Shown here one piece after another: positions 3,592 to 60,101 of a stretch of 64,000 nucleotides of DNA (positions are counted from its first letter, which is position 1; each line of letters begins with the position of its first letter). The DNA comes from Rhodopseudomonas palustris (lineage in GTDB: Bacteria > Pseudomonadota > Alphaproteobacteria > Rhizobiales > Xanthobacteraceae): positions 1 to 64,000 of the forward strand of contig NZ_QYYD01000011.1 in NCBI RefSeq assembly GCF_003591005.1, in the 5' to 3' direction. A program made the position numbers and the translations under genes. The notes under the pieces are model-generated. The model did no database searches and was not told the DNA's origin. It saw only the letters and a list, made by a program, of their open reading frames with translations.

Positions 3592-3673
3592 CGTCATTGC
3601 GAGGAGCGAAGCGACGAAGCAATCCAGCTCAGTGCACGGCGCTCTGGATTGCTTCGCTGCGCTCGCAATGACG
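3592..3673. repeat. CGTCATTGCGAG...CTCGCAATGACG palindrome (family A)
   Basis: Near-perfect inverted repeat of about 82 bases with arms that read CGTCATTGCGAGGAGCGAAG and GCGCTCGCAATGACG around AGCAATCCAG/CTGGATTGCT. A second copy sits between imuB and dnaE2. It lies in a convergent intergenic region. Confidence 0.85.
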
Positions 3674-3712
3674 GGGCAGATTCATCACAGCCAAACAGCT
3701 GCTACACGTAGT

Positions 3713-8205: not shown

Positions 8206-8295
8206 CGTCATGCCCGGGCTCGTCCCGGGCATCCACGCCTTGCTGACGTAAACGCAGGAAAGGCGTGGATGGCCGGGACAAGCCCGGCCATGACG
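8206..8295. repeat. CGTCATGCCCGGGC...GGCCATGACG 90-bp repeat (family B)
   Basis: A 90-base palindromic element: CGTCATGCCCGGGCTCGTCC on the left, GGACAAGCCCGGCCATGACG on the right, with inner arms ATCCACGCC / GGCGTGGAT. Copies occur at 21953-22044, 28670-28759 and inside dnaE2. Read through, it gives the peptide GRDKPGHD, which appears in false upstream extensions of the next gene. Confidence 0.9.
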
Positions 8296-11993: not shown

Positions 11994-12009
11994 GCCATGT
12001 CTTCGCGAT

Positions 12010-12109
12010 CGTCATTCCGGGGCGCGCGTAGCGCGAGCCCGGAATCCATAACCACCGTCGGGGAATATGGATTCCGGGCCCGCGCCAAGAGGCGCGTCCC
12101 GGAATGACG
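12010..12109. repeat. CGTCATTCCGG palindrome, first copy (family C)
   Basis: A 100-base palindrome from CGTCATTCCGGGGCGCG to CGCGTCCCGGAATGACG. It is very similar to the copy at 12181-12282, and the resemblance continues downstream, as expected for a tandem duplication. Confidence 0.85.
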
Positions 12110-12141
12110 AACTTGAATGTTTTCGGATTGGATTAGCGCCT

Positions 12142-12168
12142 ATGCTCACCAACTGCCGCGCCGTGCAC
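12142..12168 (+). other. Duplicated 5' end of the thioesterase gene
   Basis: ATGCTCACCAACTGCCGCGC here matches ATGCTTACCAACCGCCGTGA at the real gene start 173 bases downstream, and the GGATTAG just upstream of each ATG is also shared. The first nine codons read MLTNCRAVH here and MLTNRRDVQ in the gene. The frame then runs into a palindromic repeat and ends five bases before the real ATG, so this is a remnant, not a gene. Confidence 0.75.
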
Positions 12169-12180
12169 AGTCTTAACGTT

Positions 12181-12282
12181 CGTCATTCCGGGGCGCCGCG
12201 TAGCGGCGAGCCCGGAATCCATAACCACCGCCAGGGGATATGGATTCCGGGCCCGCGCCAAGGGGCGCGTCCCGGAATGACG
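12181..12282. repeat. CGTCATTCCGG palindrome, second copy (family C)
   Basis: Second tandem copy, 102 bases, with the same internal GGAATCCATAACCACCG and TATGGATTCCGGGCCCGCGCC segments as the first. Together the two copies and the stub between them occupy the 321-base gap before the thioesterase gene. Confidence 0.85.
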
Positions 12283-12314
12283 AACTTTGATGTAGCCATA
12301 CTGGATTAGCCTCG

Positions 12315-21952: not shown

Positions 21953-22044
21953 CGTCATGCCCGGGCTCGTCCCGGGCATCCACGCCTCGCGGAAGTAGTA
22001 ACAAGAAAAGGGCGTAGATGGCCGGGACAAGCCTGGCCATGACG
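21953..22044. repeat. 90-bp palindromic repeat (family B)
   Basis: A 92-base copy, CGTCATGCCCGGGCTCGTCC to GGCCATGACG, in the convergent gap between the MHYT protein gene and the antiporter gene. One arm has drifted (GGCGTAGATG in place of GGCGTGGATG). Confidence 0.88.
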
Positions 22045-28669: not shown

Positions 28670-28759
28670 CGTCATGGCCGGGCTTGTCCCGGCCATCCAC
28701 GCCTTCTCTTGCGGTTGCGCTTAAAGGCGTGGATGCCCGGCACAAGGCCGGGCATGACG
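28670..28759. repeat. 90-bp palindromic repeat (family B)
   Basis: A 90-base copy from CGTCATGGCCGGGCTTGTCC to CAAGGCCGGGCATGACG. It occupies most of the gap between the radical-SAM gene end and the udgX start, so udgX may have its own promoter or be attenuated relative to its upstream neighbour. Confidence 0.9.
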
Positions 28760-30034: not shown

Positions 30035-30127
30035 AGGGGAATCTCCTTGATTCAACTGCCGAAAAAATTTTGCTCCGGAGACTCGGGCTGAACCCGATTG
30101 ACTCTCTCCCAGGGCAGGGATTTATTA

Positions 30128-30142
30128 GAACATATCATGAAC
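30128..30142. promoter_or_regulatory. LexA (SOS) box
   Basis: GAACATATCATGAAC is a perfect GAAC-N7-GAAC, the reverse-complement form of the alphaproteobacterial LexA site GTTC-N7-GTTC. It lies 60 bases before the imuA start and 94 bases before the divergent radical-SAM gene, so it can control both units. Confidence 0.88.
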
Positions 30143-30201
30143 AAATGAGCCGGCAACGGGTTCATCGACTCTTCGTGTTGGCAAAGAAAAAGGAGCGGCG
30201 C

Positions 30202-30987
30202 ATGGACGGCGCGCGCCACAGCATGCTTGCGCGCCTGAAAGGCGAAATCGACCGGCTTGAAAGCGGGACGGCCGAGACGCTGCGCCGCGTGTCGCTCGGT
30301 CATGCCGAAGCCGACGCCGTGTTGCAAGGCGGGCTGGTGCAGGGCGCCCTGCATGAAGTGTTTTGCGACGGGCATCACAGCGCGGCGGCGACCGGTTTCA
30401 CCGCGGGCGTGGCGCGGCGGCTGGCCGAGCAGAGGTTCCTGCTGTGGATCCGCCAGGATTTTTCCGCACGTGAGAACGGCGAGCTGGCGATGGAAGGCTT
30501 TGCCGAACTCGGCCTCGACCCGCGCCGCCTGGTGATGGTGCGGGCTCATGATGCCGACAGCGCGCTGCGCGCCGCCGCCGATGCGCTGGCGTGTAACGGC
30601 CTCGGCGCGGTGATCACCGAGCTGTGGGGCGAGACCCGCGGCTTCGATCAAGTCGCCTCGCGAAAGCTGACTCTGGCGGCGCAGGACAGCGGCGTCACCG
30701 CGCTGATGCTGCGCATCGCCGCCGCGCCGCAGGCCTCGACTGCGGAGACGCGCTGGATGGTGCGCGCGGCGCATTCGCCGCCCAGCGAGGACTGGGGCGC
30801 GCCGGTACTGGAGACTTCGCTTATCCGCAATCGTCACGGCCAGACCGGCCATTGGATCATGGAATGGAACTGTGATGCGTGCCACTTCCGTGAACCGCAG
30901 ACGCATCCTCGGCCTGTGGCTGCCGAGGTTGCCGACCGATCGGTTCGAACGTCAGTTACTTCTACCGGGCAGCGGCTCGCCGGCTGA
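30202..30987 (+). CDS. imuA: Mutasome accessory protein ImuA
   Basis: A 261-residue SulA/RecA-like protein, first gene of the imuA-imuB-dnaE2 SOS mutagenesis cassette. Typical family stretches are MDGARHSMLARLKGEIDRLE at the start and LHEVFCDG... near residue 50. The frame opens 44 codons upstream, but ATG 30202 has AAGGAG seven bases before it. It lies downstream of a LexA box and overlaps the start of imuB by over 100 bases, which implies coupled translation. It supports damage-induced translesion synthesis; its exact role is not settled. Confidence 0.88.
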   Translation: MDGARHSMLARLKGEIDRLESGTAETLRRVSLGHAEADAVLQGGLVQGALHEVFCDGHHSAAATGFTAGVARRLAEQRFLLWIRQDFSARENGELAMEGFAELGLDPRRLVMVRAHDADSALRAAADALACNGLGAVITELWGETRGFDQVASRKLTLAAQDSGVTALMLRIAAAPQASTAETRWMVRAAHSPPSEDWGAPVLETSLIRNRHGQTGHWIMEWNCDACHFREPQTHPRPVAAEVADRSVRTSVTSTGQRLAG

Positions 30988-32473
30988 GACGCCGCGCCCC
31001 CCGCGTGTCGTCGCCGCCAAGCGTGACAACGCGCTGGTGGTGGTTGCCTGCGACGCGCGCGCCAGTCAGGGCGGGGTGATGCCGGGGATGCCGCTCGCCA
31101 CCGTGCGGGCGATGCATCCGGCGCTCGACGTCATCGATCACGATCCGCACGCCGATGCGGTGTTGCTGAATGCGGTCGCCGACTGGTGCGACCGCTTCAC
31201 CCCGCTGGTGGCGCTCGACGGCGCCGACGGCTTGTTACTTGATATCACCGGCTGTGCGCATCTGTTCGGCGACGAAGCGGCGTTGCTCGATACGTTGACG
31301 GCGTCGCTGACCCGACAGGGTTTCGCCACCAGCGCGGCGATCGCCGGCACCGCGGTGGCGGCGCGGGCGCTGACCCGCGGCGCGTCGCGGACCATCGTGG
31401 CGCCGGGTGAGGAGAGGCGCGCGGTGGCGCCGCTGCCGGTGGCGGCGCTCGGCGTCGATGATGCCATCGTGCGCGGACTGCGCCGCGCCGGGCTCAAGAC
31501 CATCGGCGAGGTGCTGGCGCGGCAATCGTCCGAACTCGCGGCGCGGTTCGGCGAAGGGTTTGTCGCGGTGCTGCGCCAGGCGACCGGCGACGACGACGCG
31601 CCGATCTCGCCGCGCCGGCCGGCGCCGGACTACGTGATCGACAAGCGGTTCCCTGAACCGGTCGCCACCATCGAGGTGATCCTGCCGACGCTGCTTGGGC
31701 TGGCCAAGCTCTTGATCGGCGCGATGGAGAAGAGCGGCAAGGGCGCGCGGCAGCTGGTCGCCAGCTTCTTCCGCAGCGACGGCGCGGTGCGCAGCATCAG
31801 CGTCGAAACCGGCCAGCCGGTGACGCGGGTCGAGGTGGTGCAGCGGCTGTTCGCCGAGAAGCTGGATGCGCTCGCCGATCCGCTCGATCCCGGCTTCGGC
31901 TACGATCTGATCCGGCTCGCCGCCAGCGTCAGCGTGACCACCACCGAGGCGCAGCGCGGCTTCGACACCCAGGCGCATCAGGCCGAGGACGTCGCTTTGC
32001 TGGCCGATACGCTGGCGGCGCGGCTCGGCGCCCGGCGCGTGGTGCGCTATTTGCCGCAGGACACGCATATTCCCGAACGCGCGGCGCTCGCCGTGCCGGT
32101 GCAGCACTGTCCGCCGGATGCCGGCGATGCACCGTGGCCGGCCCGCGCCGACGAGCCGCCGCTGCGTCCGCTGCGGCTGCTGCTGCAGCCCGAGCCGATC
32201 GAGGTGCTGGCCGGCGTGCCGGACGGCCCGCCCGCGCAGTTCATCTGGCGCCGCGTTACCCACCGCGTCGCCCGCGCCGAAGGCCCGGAGCGCATCGCCG
32301 CCGAATGGTGGCGCGCCGCCGAACCCGGCCTGACCCGCGATTACTTCCGCATCGAGGACGAAGCCGGCGCGCGGTTCTGGCTGTATCGCGACGGCCTCTA
32401 CGCAGTCGAGGTGATGCCGCAGCAAGGCGGCACCGGCCAGCCGCGCTGGTACATGCACGGGCTGTTCGCGTGA
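30875..32473 (+). CDS. imuB: Y-family polymerase-like mutasome protein ImuB
   Basis: A 532-residue protein related to Y-family polymerases. ImuB proteins lack the polymerase catalytic acids and act as the hub joining DnaE2 and the beta clamp. The N-terminal LGLWLPRLPTDRFERQ and the AITGTAVAARALTRGA-like finger region are typical. GTG 30872 and ATG 30875 are both in frame; I chose the ATG. It overlaps imuA by about 110 bases. A family A repeat separates it from dnaE2, yet the order and direction match the standard cassette. Confidence 0.9.
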   Translation: MRATSVNRRRILGLWLPRLPTDRFERQLLLPGSGSPAETPRPPRVVAAKRDNALVVVACDARASQGGVMPGMPLATVRAMHPALDVIDHDPHADAVLLNAVADWCDRFTPLVALDGADGLLLDITGCAHLFGDEAALLDTLTASLTRQGFATSAAIAGTAVAARALTRGASRTIVAPGEERRAVAPLPVAALGVDDAIVRGLRRAGLKTIGEVLARQSSELAARFGEGFVAVLRQATGDDDAPISPRRPAPDYVIDKRFPEPVATIEVILPTLLGLAKLLIGAMEKSGKGARQLVASFFRSDGAVRSISVETGQPVTRVEVVQRLFAEKLDALADPLDPGFGYDLIRLAASVSVTTTEAQRGFDTQAHQAEDVALLADTLAARLGARRVVRYLPQDTHIPERAALAVPVQHCPPDAGDAPWPARADEPPLRPLRLLLQPEPIEVLAGVPDGPPAQFIWRRVTHRVARAEGPERIAAEWWRAAEPGLTRDYFRIEDEAGARFWLYRDGLYAVEVMPQQGGTGQPRWYMHGLFA

Positions 32474-32493: not shown

Positions 32494-32579
32494 CGTCATT
32501 GCGAGCGCAGCGAAGCAATCCAGACGCCGTGCCCGGCGCTCCTGGATTGCTTCGTCGGCTTCGCCTCCTCGCAATGACG
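32494..32579. repeat. CGTCATTGCGAG palindrome (family A)
   Basis: An 86-base palindrome, CGTCATTGCGAGCGCAGCGA to CCTCGCAATGACG, occupying nearly all of the 119-base gap between imuB and dnaE2. It ends 13 bases before the dnaE2 ATG, so it could limit read-through or hide the ribosome site in a stem. Confidence 0.88.
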
Positions 32580-32592
32580 AGGGGAGAAGCCC

Positions 32593-35500
32593 ATGACCCC
32601 CCCGCGCTACGCCGAGATCGGCGTCACCACCAATTTCTCGTTCCTGGAGGGCGGCTCGCATCCGCAGGACTATGTGCATCAGGCGGGCGCGCTCGGGCTC
32701 GACGCCATCGGCATCGCCGACCGCAACACGCTGGCCGGCGTGGTCCGCGCCTATAGCGAGCTCGACAATGAGGAGGTGGTGCACAAGCCAAAACTGCTGA
32801 TCGGCACCCGGCTGTGCTTCATCGACGGCACGCCGGACCTCTTGGCCTATCCGACCGACCGCGCCGCCTACGGCCGGCTCTGCCGCCTGCTCAGCGCCGG
32901 CAAGCTGCGCGCCGACAAGGGTGAGTGCCACCTGACGTTCGCCGATCTGGAAGCGTTCATCCACGAAGCTCCGACGACTTTCCATCAGCCTTCCGCCTCC
33001 ATCCACCACTTCTCCCCGCCGTCAGGACCGGGCTCGTCCCGGCCATCCACGCCCGTGCTGCAGTTCCGCACGCAAGGCGTGGATGCCCGGCACAAGGCCG
33101 GGCATGACGGGGGGAGGGGCACGGCTGAAAGCTCGAAGATCTTGCTGGTGGTGATGCCGTCGTACCGCTTCCAGACCAAGGCGATCGCCCACGCCCTCAC
33201 ACGCCTCACCACCCTCACACCCGCCGTCTGGCTCGGCCTCGCGCCGTATTATCGCGGCGACGACAAGCGGCGGCTCGATCGGCTGCGCCGCATCGCGGCG
33301 GCGGCTCAGGTCCCGGGCATTGCCACCAACGACGTGCTGTATCACCACCCCGCGCGCCGCGCGCTGCAGGACGTGCTCACCTGTGTGCGCGACAAGACCA
33401 CGATCGACAAGGCCGGCCGCCGGCTCGAGGGCAACGCCGAGCGGCATCTCAAGCCTGCCATCGAGATGGCGCGGCTGTTCCGGACCGATCCGGACGCCAT
33501 AGCCGAAACGCTGCGGTTCGCGGACCGCATCAGCTTCACGCTGGACGAGCTGAAGTATCACTATCCCGACGAGCCGGTGCCGCCGGGCAAGACCGCGCAG
33601 CAGCATCTCGAAGACCTGACCTGGCAGGGCGTGAAGGATTACTTCCCGGACGGCCTCGGCGAAAAGCTGGAAGCGACGCTGCACAAAGAGCTCGCGATCA
33701 TCAAGAAGCGCGGCTACGCGCATTACTTCCTCACCGTGCACGACATCGTCCGCTATGCGCGCTCGCAGGACATCCTGTGCCAGGGGCGCGGCTCGGCGGC
33801 GAATTCCTCGGTGTGCTACGTGCTCGGCATCACCTGCGTCGATCCGACCGAGATCGACCTGTTGTTCGAGCGCTTCGTCTCCGAGGAGCGTAACGAGCCG
33901 CCGGATATCGACGTCGATTTCGAGCATTCGCGCCGCGAAGAGGTGATGCAATACATCTATCGCCGCTACGGCCGGCATCGCGCCGCGATCGTCGCCACCG
34001 TGATCCACTATCGGCCGCGCTCGGCGATCCGCGACGTCGGCAAGGCGCTGGGCCTCAGCGAAGACGTCACCGCCGCGCTCGCCGACACGGTGTGGGGCTC
34101 GTGGGGCAAGGGCCTCAACGAAATGCAGGTGCGCCAGGCCGGGCTCGATCCGCAAAATCCCATGATCGTGCGCGCGGTCGAGCTCGCCACCGAGCTGATC
34201 GGCTTTCCGCGGCATCTGTCGCAGCATGTCGGCGGCTATGTGCTGACCCAGGACCGGCTTGATACGTACGTGCCGATCGGCAATGCGGCGATGGAAGGTC
34301 GCACCTTCATCGAGTGGGACAAGGACGACATCGACGCGGTGCAGATGATGAAGGTCGACGTGCTGGCACTCGGCATGCTGACCTGCCTGCGCAAGGGCTT
34401 TCATCTGATCGAGCAGCACAAGGGCGTGCGCTTCCAGCTGTCCGATATCAAGTCGGAGGACGACAACAGCGTGTACCAGATGCTGCAGCGTGGCGAGTCG
34501 CTCGGCGTGTTCCAGGTTGAGAGCCGGGCGCAGATGAACATGCTGCCGCGGCTCAAGCCGCGCTGCTTCTACGACCTCGTCATCGAAGTCGCGATCGTGC
34601 GGCCGGGGCCGATCCAGGGCGACATGGTGCATCCATACTTGCGGCGTCGGAACGGCCAGGAGCCGGTGGTGTATCCGCAGCCGTCCGGCGACGCCGGCGC
34701 TACCAACGAGTTGCAGCAGATCCTCGGCAAGACGCTCGGCGTGCCGCTGTTCCAGGAGCAGGCGATGCGCATCGCCATCGAGGCCGCGCACTTCACGCCC
34801 GACGAGGCCAATCAGCTGCGCCGTGCCATGGCGACGTTCCGCAACGTCGGCACCATCGGCAAGTTCGAGAGCAAGATGATCGGCAATCTGGTGGCGCGCG
34901 GCTATCCGAAGGAGTTCGCCGAGAACTGCTTCAACCAGATCAAGGGATTCGGCACCTACGGCTTTCCCGAAAGCCACGCCGCCAGCTTCGCTAAGCTGGT
35001 CTACGTCTCGTCCTGGATGAAGCATTTTCATCCCGACGCGTTCTGCTGCGCGCTGCTGAATTCGCAGCCGATGGGCTTCTACGCGCCGGCGCAGATCGTC
35101 GGCGATGCACGGACTAACAAAGTCGAGGTGCGGCCGGTCGACGTGTCGCACAGCGACGGCCAGTGCACGCTCGAAGAACCAACCGGCCCATATCACGCGG
35201 TGCGGCTCGGCTTCCGGATGATCGACGGCTTCCGCTGGGCCGATCCGGACGAGGAGCGGGTGCGGCGCGAAGCCGGCGAAGCGCCGAGCGACGACTGGGC
35301 GGCGCGCATCGTCGCGGCGCGGGCGCGGGGGCCGTTCGGCTCGCTCGAACACTTCGCCCGCATCACCGCGTTGCCGAAGCGCGCGCTGATCCTGCTGGCT
35401 GATGCCGACGCGTTCCGCTCGCTCGGGCTCGATCGCCGCGCCGCGCTGTGGGCGGTGCGGCGTTTGCCCGATGATGTGCCGCTGCCGCTGTTCGAGGCCG

Positions 35501-36129
35501 CCCAGGCGCGCGAGCAGCAGGACGAGCAGGCGGCGCCGCTGCCGCAGATGCCGATGGCCGAGCACGTCGTCGCCGATTATCAGACAGTGCGGCTGTCCCT
35601 GAAGGGGCATCCGTTGGAATTTCTGCGCGCGACGTTTGCGGCTGAGCGGGTCGTGACTTGCCGCGAGGTCTCGGACACCCGCCGCAACGGCCGCCGCGCG
35701 CGCTGCGCCGGCGTCGTGCTGGTGCGGCAGCGGCCGGGCAGCGCCAAGGGCGTGATCTTCATGACGATCGAGGACGAGACCGGCATCGCCAACATCGTGG
35801 TGTGGCCGGCGGTGATGGAGAAGTTTCGCAAGGAGGTGATGGGCGCCCGGCTGGTCTTGGTCGAAGGCCGGATCCAGGCGAGCCCGGAAGGCGTCGTGCA
35901 TCTCGTCGCCGAGCGGCTGGTCGATCGCAGCTACGAGATGGGGCGCCTCGCCGACGGTCTGGTCCGCCCGGCGCTGCCGTCCGGATTGGAGCGCTACGAG
36001 CAATTGACCTCGGAGCGCAATCACGACGGCCTCAACAACGACCGCCGCGATCTGCCCGATGCGCCCGCGCAGAAAACCCGCCACCCCCGCGACGTCCGCA
36101 TCCTGCCGCCGTCGCGGGATTTTCATTGA
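32593..36129 (+). CDS. dnaE2: Error-prone DNA polymerase DnaE2 (ImuC)
   Basis: An 1178-residue C-family polymerase alpha subunit of the error-prone DnaE2 type, acting with ImuA and ImuB in SOS mutagenesis. The PHP domain is at the N-terminus (EIGVTTNFSFLEGGSHPQDY). The polymerase catalytic acids are in PPDIDVDFEH near residue 435. The helix-hairpin-helix region follows residue 850 and the OB fold near residue 1030 (GVIFMTIEDETGIANIVVW). It is about 60-80 residues longer than I expect; part of the excess is a 30-codon in-frame palindromic repeat at residues ~143-172 in the PHP domain. GGGGAGAAG precedes the ATG. Confidence 0.93.
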   Translation: MTPPRYAEIGVTTNFSFLEGGSHPQDYVHQAGALGLDAIGIADRNTLAGVVRAYSELDNEEVVHKPKLLIGTRLCFIDGTPDLLAYPTDRAAYGRLCRLLSAGKLRADKGECHLTFADLEAFIHEAPTTFHQPSASIHHFSPPSGPGSSRPSTPVLQFRTQGVDARHKAGHDGGRGTAESSKILLVVMPSYRFQTKAIAHALTRLTTLTPAVWLGLAPYYRGDDKRRLDRLRRIAAAAQVPGIATNDVLYHHPARRALQDVLTCVRDKTTIDKAGRRLEGNAERHLKPAIEMARLFRTDPDAIAETLRFADRISFTLDELKYHYPDEPVPPGKTAQQHLEDLTWQGVKDYFPDGLGEKLEATLHKELAIIKKRGYAHYFLTVHDIVRYARSQDILCQGRGSAANSSVCYVLGITCVDPTEIDLLFERFVSEERNEPPDIDVDFEHSRREEVMQYIYRRYGRHRAAIVATVIHYRPRSAIRDVGKALGLSEDVTAALADTVWGSWGKGLNEMQVRQAGLDPQNPMIVRAVELATELIGFPRHLSQHVGGYVLTQDRLDTYVPIGNAAMEGRTFIEWDKDDIDAVQMMKVDVLALGMLTCLRKGFHLIEQHKGVRFQLSDIKSEDDNSVYQMLQRGESLGVFQVESRAQMNMLPRLKPRCFYDLVIEVAIVRPGPIQGDMVHPYLRRRNGQEPVVYPQPSGDAGATNELQQILGKTLGVPLFQEQAMRIAIEAAHFTPDEANQLRRAMATFRNVGTIGKFESKMIGNLVARGYPKEFAENCFNQIKGFGTYGFPESHAASFAKLVYVSSWMKHFHPDAFCCALLNSQPMGFYAPAQIVGDARTNKVEVRPVDVSHSDGQCTLEEPTGPYHAVRLGFRMIDGFRWADPDEERVRREAGEAPSDDWAARIVAARARGPFGSLEHFARITALPKRALILLADADAFRSLGLDRRAALWAVRRLPDDVPLPLFEAAQAREQQDEQAAPLPQMPMAEHVVADYQTVRLSLKGHPLEFLRATFAAERVVTCREVSDTRRNGRRARCAGVVLVRQRPGSAKGVIFMTIEDETGIANIVVWPAVMEKFRKEVMGARLVLVEGRIQASPEGVVHLVAERLVDRSYEMGRLADGLVRPALPSGLERYEQLTSERNHDGLNNDRRDLPDAPAQKTRHPRDVRILPPSRDFH
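33020..33109. repeat. 90-bp palindromic repeat inserted in frame in dnaE2 (family B)
   Basis: Bases 33020-33109, from CGTCAGGACCGGGCTCGTCC to CAAGGCCGGGCATGACG, match the intergenic copies at 8206-8295 and 28670-28759 in arms, inner ATCCACGCC/GGCGTGGAT and exact 90-base length. Ninety bases is 30 codons, so the dnaE2 frame is kept. The encoded peptide includes GVDARHKAGHDG, the same reading seen as GVDGRDKPGHDG at other copies. Confidence 0.88.
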
Positions 36130-55641: not shown

Positions 55642-57873
55642 ATGCCGTCCGCATCTGTGCGGCCGCGCCGCCGCGTGCTCGCGCACGCCGCCGCGCTCGT
55701 CACCACGTCTATCGTCACGACCTCTTTGTTCAGCACGGCTGCCTCGGCCCAAAGCCGCGACGCTGTGCTGCCTGCGGTCACCGTCCAGGCTCCCGACCAG
55801 GCGCGTCCGGCGACACCGCGTCCGCAACGACGCAGTGCCACCGCCGGCAATGCGCGCGTACGGATCACCGCTCCGACTCCTTCCGCCGCGCCCCAGGCCG
55901 CGCCGGCCGCGGCGCGAGGGCCCGCTCTGACGGTGCTCACCGTGCAGCAGGCGCTCGCCGACATCCAGCAGACGCCAGGCGGCGTCGCATTGGTGCCGGC
56001 GAACGCCTATCGCAACTCGACCGTGTCCAACACCATCAAGGATATTCTGGATTACGTGCCCGGCGTGTTTGCCCAGCCGAAATGGGGCGACGATACGCGG
56101 CTGTCGATCCGCGGTTCTGGTCTGTCACGCAACTTCCACCTGCGCGGCGTGCAGCTCTACATGGACGGCATTCCGATCAACACCGCCGATGGCTACGGCG
56201 ATTTTCAGGAGATCGACCCGACGGCCTACAAGTACGTCGCGGTCTACAAGGGCGCCAACGCGCTGCAATTCGGCGCCAATTCGCTCGGCGGCGCCATCAA
56301 TTTTGTGACCAAGACCGGGCGCGATCCGTTCCCGAACGGTGTCAGCGTCGACGCCGGTGCGTTTGGCTATCGCCGGCTGCAGGCCAATGCCGGCGGCGCC
56401 AACGGCGTCTGGGATGGTTACGTCACCGCGTCGGCGCAAGCCGCGGACGGCTTCCGCGACCACAGCAACGGCCAGGCCTATCGGCTGAGCGCCAATATCG
56501 GCTATCAGATTACGCCGGACATCGAGACGCGGTTCTATCTCAACGCCAACAGCGTCCGCCAGCGGATACCCGGCACGGTCAGCAAGGACGTCGCGCTGAA
56601 CTCACCGCAGACCGCGGCGCCGAACAACGTCGCGCTTGATCAGCAGCGCAACATCGACACCGTGCGGCTCGCCAACAAGACCACGATCCGCTTCGACAAT
56701 ACGGTGGTGGATTTCGGCGCGTTCGGTGTCGATCGCCATCTGATGCATCCGATCTTCCAATGGCTGGACTATCGCTATCAGGACTACGGCGGCTTCGCCA
56801 AAGTCACCGACGACCGCGAGATCGGCGGCTATCGCAATCGCCTGGTCGCTGGCGTCAACATCCTCAACGGCCGTCTCGACAACAAACAATATGTCAACAT
56901 CGCCGGGCAGAAGGGCGCGCTGGCGTCGTCGTCGCTCGACAGCTCGACCAACACCTCGGTGTATATCGAGGATTCGTTCTACGTTCTGCGCAACGTCGCG
57001 CTGGTCGCCGGCACGCAGTTCCTGCACGCGACCCGCGACCGCCGCGATCGCTTCCTGTCCGATGGCAATCAGTCGGGCTCGACGGAGTTCAATCTGTGGA
57101 GCCCGAAGGGCGGCCTGTTATGGCAGATCGATCCGACATGGCAGGCCTACGCCAACATTTCGCGCAGCGCCGAAGTGCCGAGCTTCGGCGAGAGCTCGTC
57201 GGGCGTCGGCATTCCGACCATCCCGTTCACCAGTATCCGGCCGCAGCGCGCGACGACCTACGAGATCGGCACGCGTGGCAACCGACCCGATCTGACCTGG
57301 GAGCTGACCGGCTACCGCGCCGAGATCAAGGACGAACTGCTGTGCCTGTACAGCGCGTTCGGCAATTGCAACGTCACCAACGCCGACCGCACCGTGCACC
57401 AGGGCATCGAGGCCGGGCTCGGTGTCGCGTTGTTCAAAAATCTGTTCGAGCACGGACCGGCCGCGGATCGGCTGTGGCTCAACATGGCCTACACGCTGAA
57501 CGACTTCCGTTTCGACAACGACGCCAAGTTCGGCACCAACCTACTGCCAGGCGCCCCCCGGCACTATCTGCGTGCCGAGCTGCTCTACAAGAACCCGAAC
57601 GGCTTTTACGTCGGCCCGAACGTCGAGTGGGTGCCGCAGGCTTACTACGTCGACAGCGCCAACACCCAGCAGACCGAGCCCTACGCGCTGCTCGGCCTCA
57701 AGGCCGGCATCGACAATGGCGGACCGTACTCGATCTACATCGAAGGCCGCAACATCCTCAACAAGACCTACATCGCCTCCGCCAGCATCATCGACAAGGC
57801 GACCGCGTCCTCGCCGCTGTTCGAGCCGGGCACCGGCCGTGCGGTCTATGCCGGATTGAAGGTCCGGTGGTGA
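55642..57873 (+). CDS. TonB-dependent outer-membrane receptor 1
   Basis: A 743-residue TonB-dependent receptor. The signal peptide ends near residue 37 (TAASAQSR). A Pro/Ala-rich stretch replaces a clear TonB box; PAVTVQAP at about residue 44 is the best candidate. The plug domain is at residues ~110-230, with RLSIRGSGLSRNFHLRGVQL and the YGANALQFGANSLGGAINF-like segment. The barrel ends in YAGLKVRW with a terminal aromatic residue. It resembles the FecA-type group. GGAG lies seven bases before the ATG. It is the first of two overlapping paralogues. Confidence 0.9.
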   Translation: MPSASVRPRRRVLAHAAALVTTSIVTTSLFSTAASAQSRDAVLPAVTVQAPDQARPATPRPQRRSATAGNARVRITAPTPSAAPQAAPAAARGPALTVLTVQQALADIQQTPGGVALVPANAYRNSTVSNTIKDILDYVPGVFAQPKWGDDTRLSIRGSGLSRNFHLRGVQLYMDGIPINTADGYGDFQEIDPTAYKYVAVYKGANALQFGANSLGGAINFVTKTGRDPFPNGVSVDAGAFGYRRLQANAGGANGVWDGYVTASAQAADGFRDHSNGQAYRLSANIGYQITPDIETRFYLNANSVRQRIPGTVSKDVALNSPQTAAPNNVALDQQRNIDTVRLANKTTIRFDNTVVDFGAFGVDRHLMHPIFQWLDYRYQDYGGFAKVTDDREIGGYRNRLVAGVNILNGRLDNKQYVNIAGQKGALASSSLDSSTNTSVYIEDSFYVLRNVALVAGTQFLHATRDRRDRFLSDGNQSGSTEFNLWSPKGGLLWQIDPTWQAYANISRSAEVPSFGESSSGVGIPTIPFTSIRPQRATTYEIGTRGNRPDLTWELTGYRAEIKDELLCLYSAFGNCNVTNADRTVHQGIEAGLGVALFKNLFEHGPAADRLWLNMAYTLNDFRFDNDAKFGTNLLPGAPRHYLRAELLYKNPNGFYVGPNVEWVPQAYYVDSANTQQTEPYALLGLKAGIDNGGPYSIYIEGRNILNKTYIASASIIDKATASSPLFEPGTGRAVYAGLKVRW

Positions 57874-60101
57874 TGGAGCGTTCAAAGTCATTGTTATCCG
57901 TGTCGGTCCGCTGTGCGCTGCTGGCCTCTGCCGCTGTCGTTGCGTCCACGGCGTTGTCGAGCCGGTCCGCGCTGGCGCAGAGCCCGTCCAGTTCGCTGCC
58001 GCCAGTGACTGTTCAGGCGCCGGACGAGGCTCCGCGTCCAGCGGCTCGGCCGAAGCCCCGCGCTGTCTCAATCGGCGCTCGTGCTGTGAGAGCGAGCAGC
58101 ATCGGTGCAACCGCCGCGCCGCCGGTCGCGGGCGGCGTGCAGTCACCAGGAGCCCGCGCACCAGCGAGCCTGACCGTGCCGACCACCGAACAGGCCCGCC
58201 GAGAGATAGAGCGTGTTCCCGGCGGCGTCGCGCTTGTGCCCGACACCGAATTCAAGAATACGCCGGCCAACACCATCAAGGACGCGCTCGGCTGGGTTCC
58301 GGGCGTCCTGATCCAACAGCGCTGGGGGCCGGATGCGCGGATTTCGATCCGCGGTTCGGGCCTGTCGCGCGCTTACGGCAACCGCGGCATCAACCCGTTG
58401 ATGGACGGCATTCCGATCAGCACCGCCGACGGCCTGTTCGACTTGTTCGAGATCGATCCGACCGCGTATCGCTACATCGAAGTCTACAAGGGCGCCAATG
58501 CGCTACGTTACGGCGCCAATTCGCTAGGCGGTGCGATCAATTTCGTGATGCCGACCGGGCGCAATTCGCCGGAGTTCGAGGCGCGGATCGACGGCGGCAG
58601 CTTCGGCTATCTGAAGTCCGCCACGAGCGTCGGCGGCTTCGCCGGGCCATTCGACTGGTACATGACGATGTCGGCGCAGCGCGAGGAGGGCTATCGTGAG
58701 CACAGCAAGACCGACGCCGAACGCCTCAATGCAAATTTCGGCTACCAGTTTTCGCCGGACGCCGAAACCAGGTTCTATCTCACTGCCGGGCGCTGGCGTT
58801 CTGAGATCCCCGGCGAAGTAACCAAGGATGCGGCGCTGACAACGCCGCGCGCCGCCAATCCGGTCTGGGTGCAGCAGGACCAGCAGCGCAACATCGATTC
58901 GGTGCGGGTTGCCAACAAAACCACGTTGCGATTCGACGAGACGACCGTGGATTTCGGTGCCTTCGTGCTCGAACGCCACGTCATGCATCCGATCTATCAG
59001 TGGCTCGATTTCCACGTCCACGACTATGGCGGCTTCGCGCGCGCCACCGACGACCGGCTGATCGGTGGCTTCCGCAATCGCCTGATCACCGGCGTCAACA
59101 TCCAGAACGGGACGATCGACATCAATCAGTACTGGAACGTCGGAGCGGCGGTGAAGGGACCGCTGGCGGCTTCCTATTTGTGGAAATCGCAGAACGTCTC
59201 CGCCTATGCGGACAACTCGTTCTACGTCTTGCCTAACGTCGCACTGGTCGCCGGCGCGCAATTCCTCCATGCGGTGCGCGACCAGCAGGATCGCTTTCTG
59301 ACAAATGGCGATCAGTCCGGGCGGCGCACCTACAACCCCTTCAGTCCCAAGATGGGGCTGCTGTGGGACGTCGATTCAACCTGGCAGGTGTATGGCAATA
59401 TCTCGCGCAGCGCCGAGGTGCCGACCTACGACGTCACCACCTTCGCGTCGCCTGCGAGTACGGACATCAACGCCCAAACCGCCACAACCTATGAAATCGG
59501 TACCCGTGGTCGGCGTCCGGACCTCACCTGGGACATCTCGCTGTATCGCGCCGACATCCGCAACGAGCTGCAATGTCTGACCAGCCCATCGACGCCGGGG
59601 GCCTGCACGATCCGCAATGCCGATCGCACCGTGCATCAGGGCGTCGAAGCCGGGCTGGGCGTCGCGTTCCTGAAGTCGATTTTCGCGCAGGAGGACCGGT
59701 TCTGGTTCAACGTCGCCTACACCTACAGCGACTTCCGCTTCGACGGCGACGTCACCTGGGGCAACAACCAATTGCCGGCGGTGCCGGCACATTGGGTCCG
59801 GGCCGAGGTGCTATACAAGCACGCCAACGGCTTTTACGCCGGTCCCAATGTCGAATGGATGCCGCAAGCGTTCTTCGCCGACAACGCCAATACTTTGACG
59901 GTCGATCCTTACGCGCTGTTGAACTTCAAGCTCGGCTACGACCGCGGCACCGGCTGGTCCGGTTATATTGAAGCCCGCAATCTGTTGGACAAGCGCTACA
60001 TCTCGACCGCGATCGCGGTGGAAGCGGCTACGGCCGCGTCGGCGCTGTTCAATCCGGGCATGGGGCGGGCGGTCTATGCCGGCTTGCGGACGCGGTGGTG
60101 A
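57873..60101 (+). CDS. TonB-dependent outer-membrane receptor 2
   Basis: A 742-residue paralogue of the preceding receptor, the same length and with plug and barrel alignable throughout (RISIRGSGLSRAYGNRGINP, LRYGANSLGGAINFV, GAQFLHAVRDQQDRFLTNG, ending VYAGLRTRW). The signal ends at SALAQS near residue 36. Its ATG overlaps the stop of receptor 1 in TGATG, so the two are translationally coupled. The frame is open far upstream inside receptor 1, but that part is a shadow. The ligand is unknown; ferric siderophore or copper complex uptake is typical. Confidence 0.9.
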   Translation: MERSKSLLSVSVRCALLASAAVVASTALSSRSALAQSPSSSLPPVTVQAPDEAPRPAARPKPRAVSIGARAVRASSIGATAAPPVAGGVQSPGARAPASLTVPTTEQARREIERVPGGVALVPDTEFKNTPANTIKDALGWVPGVLIQQRWGPDARISIRGSGLSRAYGNRGINPLMDGIPISTADGLFDLFEIDPTAYRYIEVYKGANALRYGANSLGGAINFVMPTGRNSPEFEARIDGGSFGYLKSATSVGGFAGPFDWYMTMSAQREEGYREHSKTDAERLNANFGYQFSPDAETRFYLTAGRWRSEIPGEVTKDAALTTPRAANPVWVQQDQQRNIDSVRVANKTTLRFDETTVDFGAFVLERHVMHPIYQWLDFHVHDYGGFARATDDRLIGGFRNRLITGVNIQNGTIDINQYWNVGAAVKGPLAASYLWKSQNVSAYADNSFYVLPNVALVAGAQFLHAVRDQQDRFLTNGDQSGRRTYNPFSPKMGLLWDVDSTWQVYGNISRSAEVPTYDVTTFASPASTDINAQTATTYEIGTRGRRPDLTWDISLYRADIRNELQCLTSPSTPGACTIRNADRTVHQGVEAGLGVAFLKSIFAQEDRFWFNVAYTYSDFRFDGDVTWGNNQLPAVPAHWVRAEVLYKHANGFYAGPNVEWMPQAFFADNANTLTVDPYALLNFKLGYDRGTGWSGYIEARNLLDKRYISTAIAVEAATAASALFNPGMGRAVYAGLRTRW

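Follow-up and report, generated by a model that had tools for sequence, protein, structure and literature searches.

A CGTC-tagged REP dimer lying in frame in the PHP domain of Rhodopseudomonas DnaE2, a probably old and tolerated insertion, and unrelated repeats at a second DnaE2 loop in relatives

The window (the whole stretch of 64,000 nucleotides of Rhodopseudomonas palustris that we analysed, from contig NZ_QYYD01000011.1) carries an imuA-like gene, an imuB-like gene, and dnaE2, with a palindromic repeat inside the last one. The open reading frame at 32593-36129 was assigned to DnaE2 by its match to NCBIfam PRK05672 (1573 bits, cut-off 939). The features of the locus are:

30070..30987, + strand: imuA-like gene, start uncertain; its NCBIfam ImuA match lies under the cut-off
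30872..32473, + strand: imuB-like relative of the Y-family polymerases, directly upstream of dnaE2
32494..32579, no strand assigned: another CGTC-tagged palindromic dimer, in the imuB-dnaE2 spacer, recognised by eye from the sequence
32593..36129, + strand: dnaE2, error-prone DNA polymerase, 1178 aa
32959..33019, + strand: left spacer, a hypervariable linker, 20 aa in the window
33020..33109, + strand: head-to-head dimer of CGTC-tagged REP palindromes, 90 nt, in frame in dnaE2 (residues 143-173)
33020..33049, + strand: left REP, with CGTC tag, 9-bp stem (7/9 pairs kept), 5-nt loop, and CCA tail, a layout also found in the available text of PMC3733652
33080..33109, - strand: right REP, inverted, stem with 9/9 pairs, CGTC tag at the outer end
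33110..33138, + strand: right spacer, a variable linker preceding the strand ILLVVMP

We considered whether dnaE2 is a pseudogene and rejected it: the frame is open, the dN/dS of the parts flanking the insert is 0.19, and the best structural matches of the predicted protein model are Pol III alpha chains. Asp 438, 440, and 589, which we take to be the catalytic residues, are invariant in 36 sequences. Upstream, the dimer at 32494-32579 (CGTCATTGCGAGC...) fills most of the imuB-dnaE2 spacer and stops just before the dnaE2 ATG, and part of it is found again, inverted, at 3643-3676. At the start of imuA, a GTTCN7GTTC box (the alphaproteobacterial LexA-type motif) lies at 30128-30142; it is the sole one in the window, where 1.5 are expected by chance, so only its position is suggestive.

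The 90-bp palindrome that an earlier note on this DNA had placed in frame within dnaE2 was confirmed. Its first base is codon position 2 of residue 143 and its last base falls in codon 173. Both inverted units present the CGTC motif outside, a 9-bp stem, a 5-nt loop, and CCA inside; at both outer ends the CGTC motif is unpaired, and the GTAG motif is absent there. The 90-mer has a folding energy of -54.8 kcal/mol, and shuffled sequences average -36.9 (z = -5.2). Rfam matches in 32500-33700 (three hits to two human-type microRNA models, far under the gathering scores) were discarded as palindrome artefacts. An assembly artefact was ruled out, as the insert is present in the single-contig genomes G004, G005, G006, G008, and G010 (G numbers denote genomes and L numbers loci).

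Between the same anchors, DnaE2 has 71 residues in the window and 14 in most Bradyrhizobium, and these 57 extra residues exceed the repeat because variable spacers lie on both flanks. Imperfect PSASIHQ-like repeats occur in the left spacer (32959-33019), whose length varies between 6 and 34 aa across relatives (L093 and L095 were noted). Empty sites were available to look for a target duplication (G012 and Bradyrhizobium), but variable spacers border the element in 13/13 complete orthologues; the insertion would be old, with hypervariable flanks.

The earlier note knew of no description of this repeat family, and here it must be corrected: this kind of feature is already known. In the part of Di Nocera et al. 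(2013; PMC3733652) drawn on here, CGTC-tagged REPs are described in R. palustris, together with head-to-head dimers and intragenic REPs, and DnaE2 is named among the REP-tagged proteins, the species not being stated. Our element probably belongs to the CGTC-3 family of that report, judging from the sequence and the available portion of its text: it shares the CGTC tag, the 9-bp stems opening with AT pairs, the 5-nt loops, the CCA tails, and the head-to-head (hetero)dimer arrangement that prevails among CGTC-3 REPs, which are also present in R. palustris. The likeness is one of layout. The same part of PMC3733652 differs from our account in that genus-wide conservation, peptide neutrality, and cassette exchange are not treated in it. 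Two Rickettsia palindromic elements, RPE-4 (CGTC-4) and RPE-6 (CGTC-1), are assigned there to the CGTC superfamily. The comparison with Rickettsia elements made in the earlier note is supported, as is its placing of a tolerated insert in the PHP domain: in both cases palindromic repeats lie in frame in conserved proteins and the gene stays intact. They differ in that in-frame copies are rare in the window genome (1/57 examined, in a non-random sample).

REPINs, which are mobilised by RAYT transposases, consist of two inverted REPs with a spacer, occur in many copies, and are GTAG-tagged in their classical form. The element at 33020-33109 is likewise made of two inverted REPs with a spacer and has many copies in the genome, but its tag is CGTC, not GTAG, and it differs further in that no RAYT-like gene with REPs on both flanks was found among the seven Y1_Tnp loci of the genus (the search covered Y1 transposases only). 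These loci come from 6/16 Rhodopseudomonas genomes, and one of them (L147) lies near a single weak REP arm. In its available text, PMC3733652 discusses RAYTs and gives no dedicated transposase for CGTC REPs.

Three further copies of the same dimer lie in the window outside dnaE2:

8206..8295, no strand assigned: copy of the dimer, 90 nt
21953..22044, no strand assigned: copy of the dimer, 92 nt
28670..28759, no strand assigned: copy of the dimer, 90 nt

A comparison of the window repeats grouped the dnaE2 element with these three (families D4 and D6), and the kinship proposed by the earlier note holds. Within the 5.62-Mb genome of the window, the arm pattern (up to three mismatches) was found 421 times (214 forward and 207 reverse), and the reversed-pattern control gave 0 and 0, so the abundance greatly exceeds what chance would give. 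With a slightly wider pattern, arms were found in 16/16 Rhodopseudomonas genomes, from 16 in G012 to 424 in G000. In the 24 dimers listed in detail, the two arms carry different stems (heterodimers). The length of exactly 30 codons, singled out in the earlier note, is right but ordinary for the family: among the 58 head-to-head dimers outside dnaE2 in the stretches read (other arm arrangements were left uncounted), 42 are 90 nt long, and the usual unit is therefore frame-neutral by length. Of the 16 copies with other lengths, 15 are not divisible by three.

Among the Rhodopseudomonas stretches examined, we found such a repeat open and in frame within a gene in dnaE2 alone. A codon-usage test, optimistic in that it recovered 430/441 positions on its own training genes, was applied to 57 own-genome copies that form a non-random set (4 from the window, 44 around the first-listed zero-mismatch copies, and 9 from stretches chosen for long frames), and gave one same-frame open case, which is dnaE2, and two same-frame cases with a stop. 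We also fetched 20 Rhodopseudomonas stretches for in-frame cases. One (L130) is the dnaE2 of G004, and none of the 19 others displayed one coding frame on both sides, as judged by eye from codon-position composition; several of these candidates were rejected as N-terminal frame extensions. On the side of the repeat, 134 of 348 insertion geometries of REP dimers would leave the frame open. The dimer is typically 90 nt and stop-free in several frames, so many insertions would keep the reading frame, and selection presumably purges REP dimers from other genes.

At the genus level, the complete element is present at the same dnaE2 site in 13/16 Rhodopseudomonas genomes. In G013 and G014 the contigs end at or soon after the element and its sequence is present, so that carriers amount to 15/16; the earlier note had taken the element to be mobile, but this widespread sharing does not support recent mobility at the dnaE2 site. 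From the sequence comparisons, the insertion is not recent and likely predates the split of the sampled Rhodopseudomonas species. The one empty site is that of G012. Both the dnaE2 tree and a midpoint-rooted gyrB tree of 15 genomes nest this genome within the carriers; loss or replacement is therefore likelier than primary absence, and its empty site is probably a secondary loss. The MAG L029, named Rhodopseudomonas, falls outside the carriers in the dnaE2 tree and is without the element. The element peptide was absent from the DnaE2 of all non-Rhodopseudomonas relatives in the parsed set, so the same peptide was not found in a species lacking the repeat family, the case that the earlier note had named as speaking against it. 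Sequences with no usable anchor were left out of the DnaE2 alignment (L004 and L038) or the orthologue set (L092, L094, and L099).

The dnaE2 and gyrB trees conflict for several Rhodopseudomonas genomes (e.g., G004 and G009), which suggests that dnaE2 may have been exchanged between species.

At the protein level, the prediction for the REP peptide is a disordered loop of the PHP domain. The AlphaFold2 model of the window DnaE2 has a mean pLDDT of 78 and a confident PHP fold, and residues 128-180 fall below 50 (block values of 24-31 across residues 131-180); this stretch lies between the PHP helix 116-124 and the strand 183-188. The DnaE2 of L015 has no PHP-loop insert, and in its model strand 131-136 comes almost immediately after helix 121-126. 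The PHP metal site itself differs between the paralogues. DnaE1 presents HLH in 28/29 sequences (27 FVHLHVHS and 1 FVHLHVQS; it was not found in the remaining one), whereas DnaE2, in an alignment of 79 proteins (78 loci and the window), has TTN at that position in 51/79 and HxH in 0/79 (5/79 not readable). This is in line with PMC12926913, which, in its accessible part, describes the PHP sites of DnaE2 as substituted with few exceptions and terms DnaE2 non-essential.

The insert peptide evolves neutrally: selection keeps the frame open, not the peptide. Across 11 species, dN/dS was 1.16 for the insert, as opposed to 0.19 for the remainder of dnaE2. The same was observed within groups of related inserts: 1.09 and 0.20 for type A, 0.84 and 0.19 for type B with G008, and 1.05 and 0.08 for G001 with G003 (insert and rest of the gene, respectively; the types are given below). 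Regarding the frame, the length of the element is divisible by three in 13/13 complete orthologues (90 nt in 11, 87 in G001, and 75 in G003) against 1/16 of the copies elsewhere that are not 90 nt, and thus deletions in dnaE2 are held to multiples of three.

These results bear on the proposal of the earlier note that the insert may alter mutasome function. It could be, for example through PHP contacts or folding, that the insert changes the activity of DnaE2 or the mutasome and has been kept since a changed mutation rate was useful, which is also what the available text of PMC3733652 speculates for repair genes generally. Retention in 15/16 genomes would fit it, and so would the statement in that text that many REP-tagged proteins serve DNA synthesis and repair, where chance is doubted. 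However, a peptide with dN/dS near 1, predicted to be disordered, decayed in G001 and G003, and missing from the nested G012 points to neutrality. A functional effect is possible, though these results do not support it, and we consider this explanation unlikely; most likely, the insert does nothing specific.

For the palindrome itself, at least 16/18 stem pairs are kept in 11/13 orthologues, and 8 or 9 in both stems in 10/13. The left stem has decayed in G001 and G003 to 3 and 6 of 9 pairs, with the gene still open; pairs were counted at fixed offsets, which undercounts them where deletions shift the register. The inserts fall into cassettes: type A (G004, G007, G009, G010, G011, and G015) with 91-99% identity, type B (G000, G002, G005, and G006) with 84-99%, and G008 between both. 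In the dnaE2 tree, the neighbours of G005 are G007 and G011 and that of G006 is G015, yet the cassettes of G005 and G006 are 99% identical. In 30-codon windows, the identity of G006 to G005 is 97% over the insert but 74-79% in the adjoining sequence; to G015 it is 61% over the insert and 85-92% in the adjoining sequence. This mosaic means that the cassette was replaced at the insert, swapped between lineages; we infer that donor and route would be other REP copies through ectopic conversion, or another species through short-tract exchange. Other repeat copies in the G005 genome share 92% identity with its dnaE2 cassette. The exact type-A core was found only in dnaE2 among the genomes searched, copies elsewhere having two or three mismatches, so type A is not accounted for by ordinary conversion from those copies.

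The type-A inserts also differ little at synonymous positions. Among the six type-A orthologues, 11/288 fourfold comparisons differ in the insert (0.038), below all 673 same-size gene windows (mean 0.216, lowest 0.039); over the 11 species the insert value is 0.085, equalled by 11/673 windows. Such depletion is unexpected under simple drift after one old insertion, and reflects either a constraint at the DNA level or cassette spread by recombination after the species split. A constraint would agree with the palindrome acting as nucleic acid, either as an mRNA hairpin that slows translation or changes decay, or as a DNA cruciform that binds a protein, with its sequence preserved for that reason. 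The very stable fold, the stem pairs kept in most orthologues, and the second CGTC dimer immediately before the dnaE2 start all suit this idea. Nevertheless, stem pairing is intrinsic to the repeat and would also be renewed by cassette replacement, the gene stays open in G001 and G003 despite their damaged left stem, and type A shows equally low values for dN and dS, a result that recent spread accounts for as well. We regard a role as nucleic acid as very unlikely.

Apart from the PHP loop, DnaE2 of Bradyrhizobium and kin takes inserts at a second place, which lies between two helices close to window residue 896. A long segment is found there in 25 relatives, and for 22/25 a matching copy exists beyond dnaE2, either in the window or at another locus; the segments of L030, L031, and L008 had no such match. 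The families at this site are unrelated, as judged by eye, and include a TGTC/CGTC-ATTCCGGGG composite, a CCCTCCCCC hairpin family that is also found in the ImuB of L019, and others. The window holds the composite as well:

12002..12283, no strand assigned: two copies of the TGTC/CGTC-ATTCCGGGG composite (family D5) that is in frame at the second DnaE2 site of Bradyrhizobium; at most 93% identical to the L039 insert

The second-site insert of L015 has relatives in 24/26 genomes searched, where 34 candidates were scored per genome and copy counts are lower bounds; it is also predicted to be disordered (residues 846-879). The core of Br-REP1 was found within the second-site inserts of L031 (one mismatch) and L010 (two mismatches). 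The accessible part of PMC5082802 presents Br-REP1 and Br-REP2 of Bradyrhizobium as repeats of intergenic regions or 3'-UTRs; they differ from the dnaE2 element at 33020, which is another family.

In ImuB, repeat-like inserts of at least 25 aa were observed near residue 38 in 6/76 sequences (L005, L019, L022, L031, L033, and L038), five of them within the 29 control genomes; that of L033 looks tandem rather than palindromic. In matched genomes we counted inserts that span 12 residues or more, in columns occupied by fewer than 75% of the sequences: DnaE2 had them in 21/29, its paralogue DnaE1 in 0/29, and AddA in 0/27 (two of the 29 genomes were left out as fragmentary). The DnaE1 set includes a 953-aa piece of a broken frame (L182) and two sequences cut near the C-terminus (L174 and L179). 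A biotin-carboxylase subunit, a weak control with one per genome, had an insert in 1/29, not repeat-like by eye. The cut misses repeat inserts such as those of L005, L018, and L031, and therefore 21 is low for DnaE2, although not all counted inserts are proven repeats (that of L030 has no match elsewhere). Since the control genomes share ancestry, any P value is inflated and a Fisher value is not a true probability.

The DnaE2 of L078, a Hyphomicrobium MAG, contains repeat-like in-frame peptides of PHPNPLP type after residue 192 and near residue 910 (window numbering).

What the present analysis adds is that, in Bradyrhizobium and kin, unrelated palindromic repeats are in frame at a second DnaE2 loop and in some ImuB. 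In the open-access literature we found no earlier account of the genus-wide orthologous history, a neutrality test, the second site with its unrelated families, ImuB, or a paralogue control. That repeats recur in DnaE2 and some ImuB, while the DnaE1 and AddA of these genomes are free of them, again favours an altered mutasome activity, but the second site holds unrelated peptides, and therefore no particular sequence is selected there. Another explanation is that mutasome genes are preferred insertion targets, through single-stranded DNA at the time of the SOS response, transcription, or a target feature, beyond mere tolerance. It would account for several unrelated families at the same second site and for the second-family repeat, which requires at least four changes of state on the DnaE1 tree (labels are by eye and L053 is not counted as family 2, so four is a minimum). 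Tolerance, however, gives the same pattern, both modelled inserts are predicted to lie in loops, no new insertion was observed, and the Y1 search tied no transposase to the repeat; we find target preference highly improbable. It is also conceivable, though rather doubtful, that DnaE2 and ImuB of Bradyrhizobium, Rhodopseudomonas, and kin recurrently accept in-frame palindromic repeats of several unrelated families at fixed loops, and that the exchange of these disordered loops either affects how the polymerase is regulated or is promoted by the damage-induced state during which the operon is expressed. If true, it would represent a feedback between repeat mobility and mutagenesis.

Overall, we consider it likely that the element is an old CGTC REP-dimer insertion in a tolerated PHP loop of DnaE2, neutral, with its cassette replaced now and then. 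A head-to-head dimer would have entered dnaE2 before the sampled Rhodopseudomonas species diverged, landing in the PHP loop between helix 116-124 and strand 183-188, and would presumably be translated as a disordered loop. Tolerance by DnaE2 would stem from a PHP metal site that had already degenerated and from the role of the enzyme as a non-essential SOS polymerase, presumably dispensable in the window species too. Once in DnaE2, the insert would be overwritten, decay, or be lost. In Bradyrhizobium and kin, DnaE2 loops, and less often ImuB, would repeatedly receive such repeats, and DnaE1 and AddA of the same genomes would not. Three points run against the simplest form of this history: the synonymous depletion of type A, the type-A core found only in dnaE2, and the retention in 15/16 genomes, which can be read as selection.

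In this orthologous, nearly genus-wide case, the fate of an intragenic REP can be traced as it is retained, decays, has its cassette swapped, and is probably lost, which makes it testable whether such REPs are tools or neutral passengers. The contrast between DnaE2 and its paralogue turns an earlier remark on REPs favouring repair genes into a controlled comparison. For annotation, length differences of DnaE2 (and some ImuB) in this group are often due to in-frame repeats, presumably translated. The draft assemblies G013 and G014 (L092, L094, and L099) and the locus L004 are interrupted within the dnaE2 repeat or shortly past it, and automated annotation may call their dnaE2 truncated.

Finally, elsewhere in the window, two adjacent gene-sized stretches at 56027-59942 share 71-74% identity and form a tandem duplication with a spacing of about 2.24 kb.
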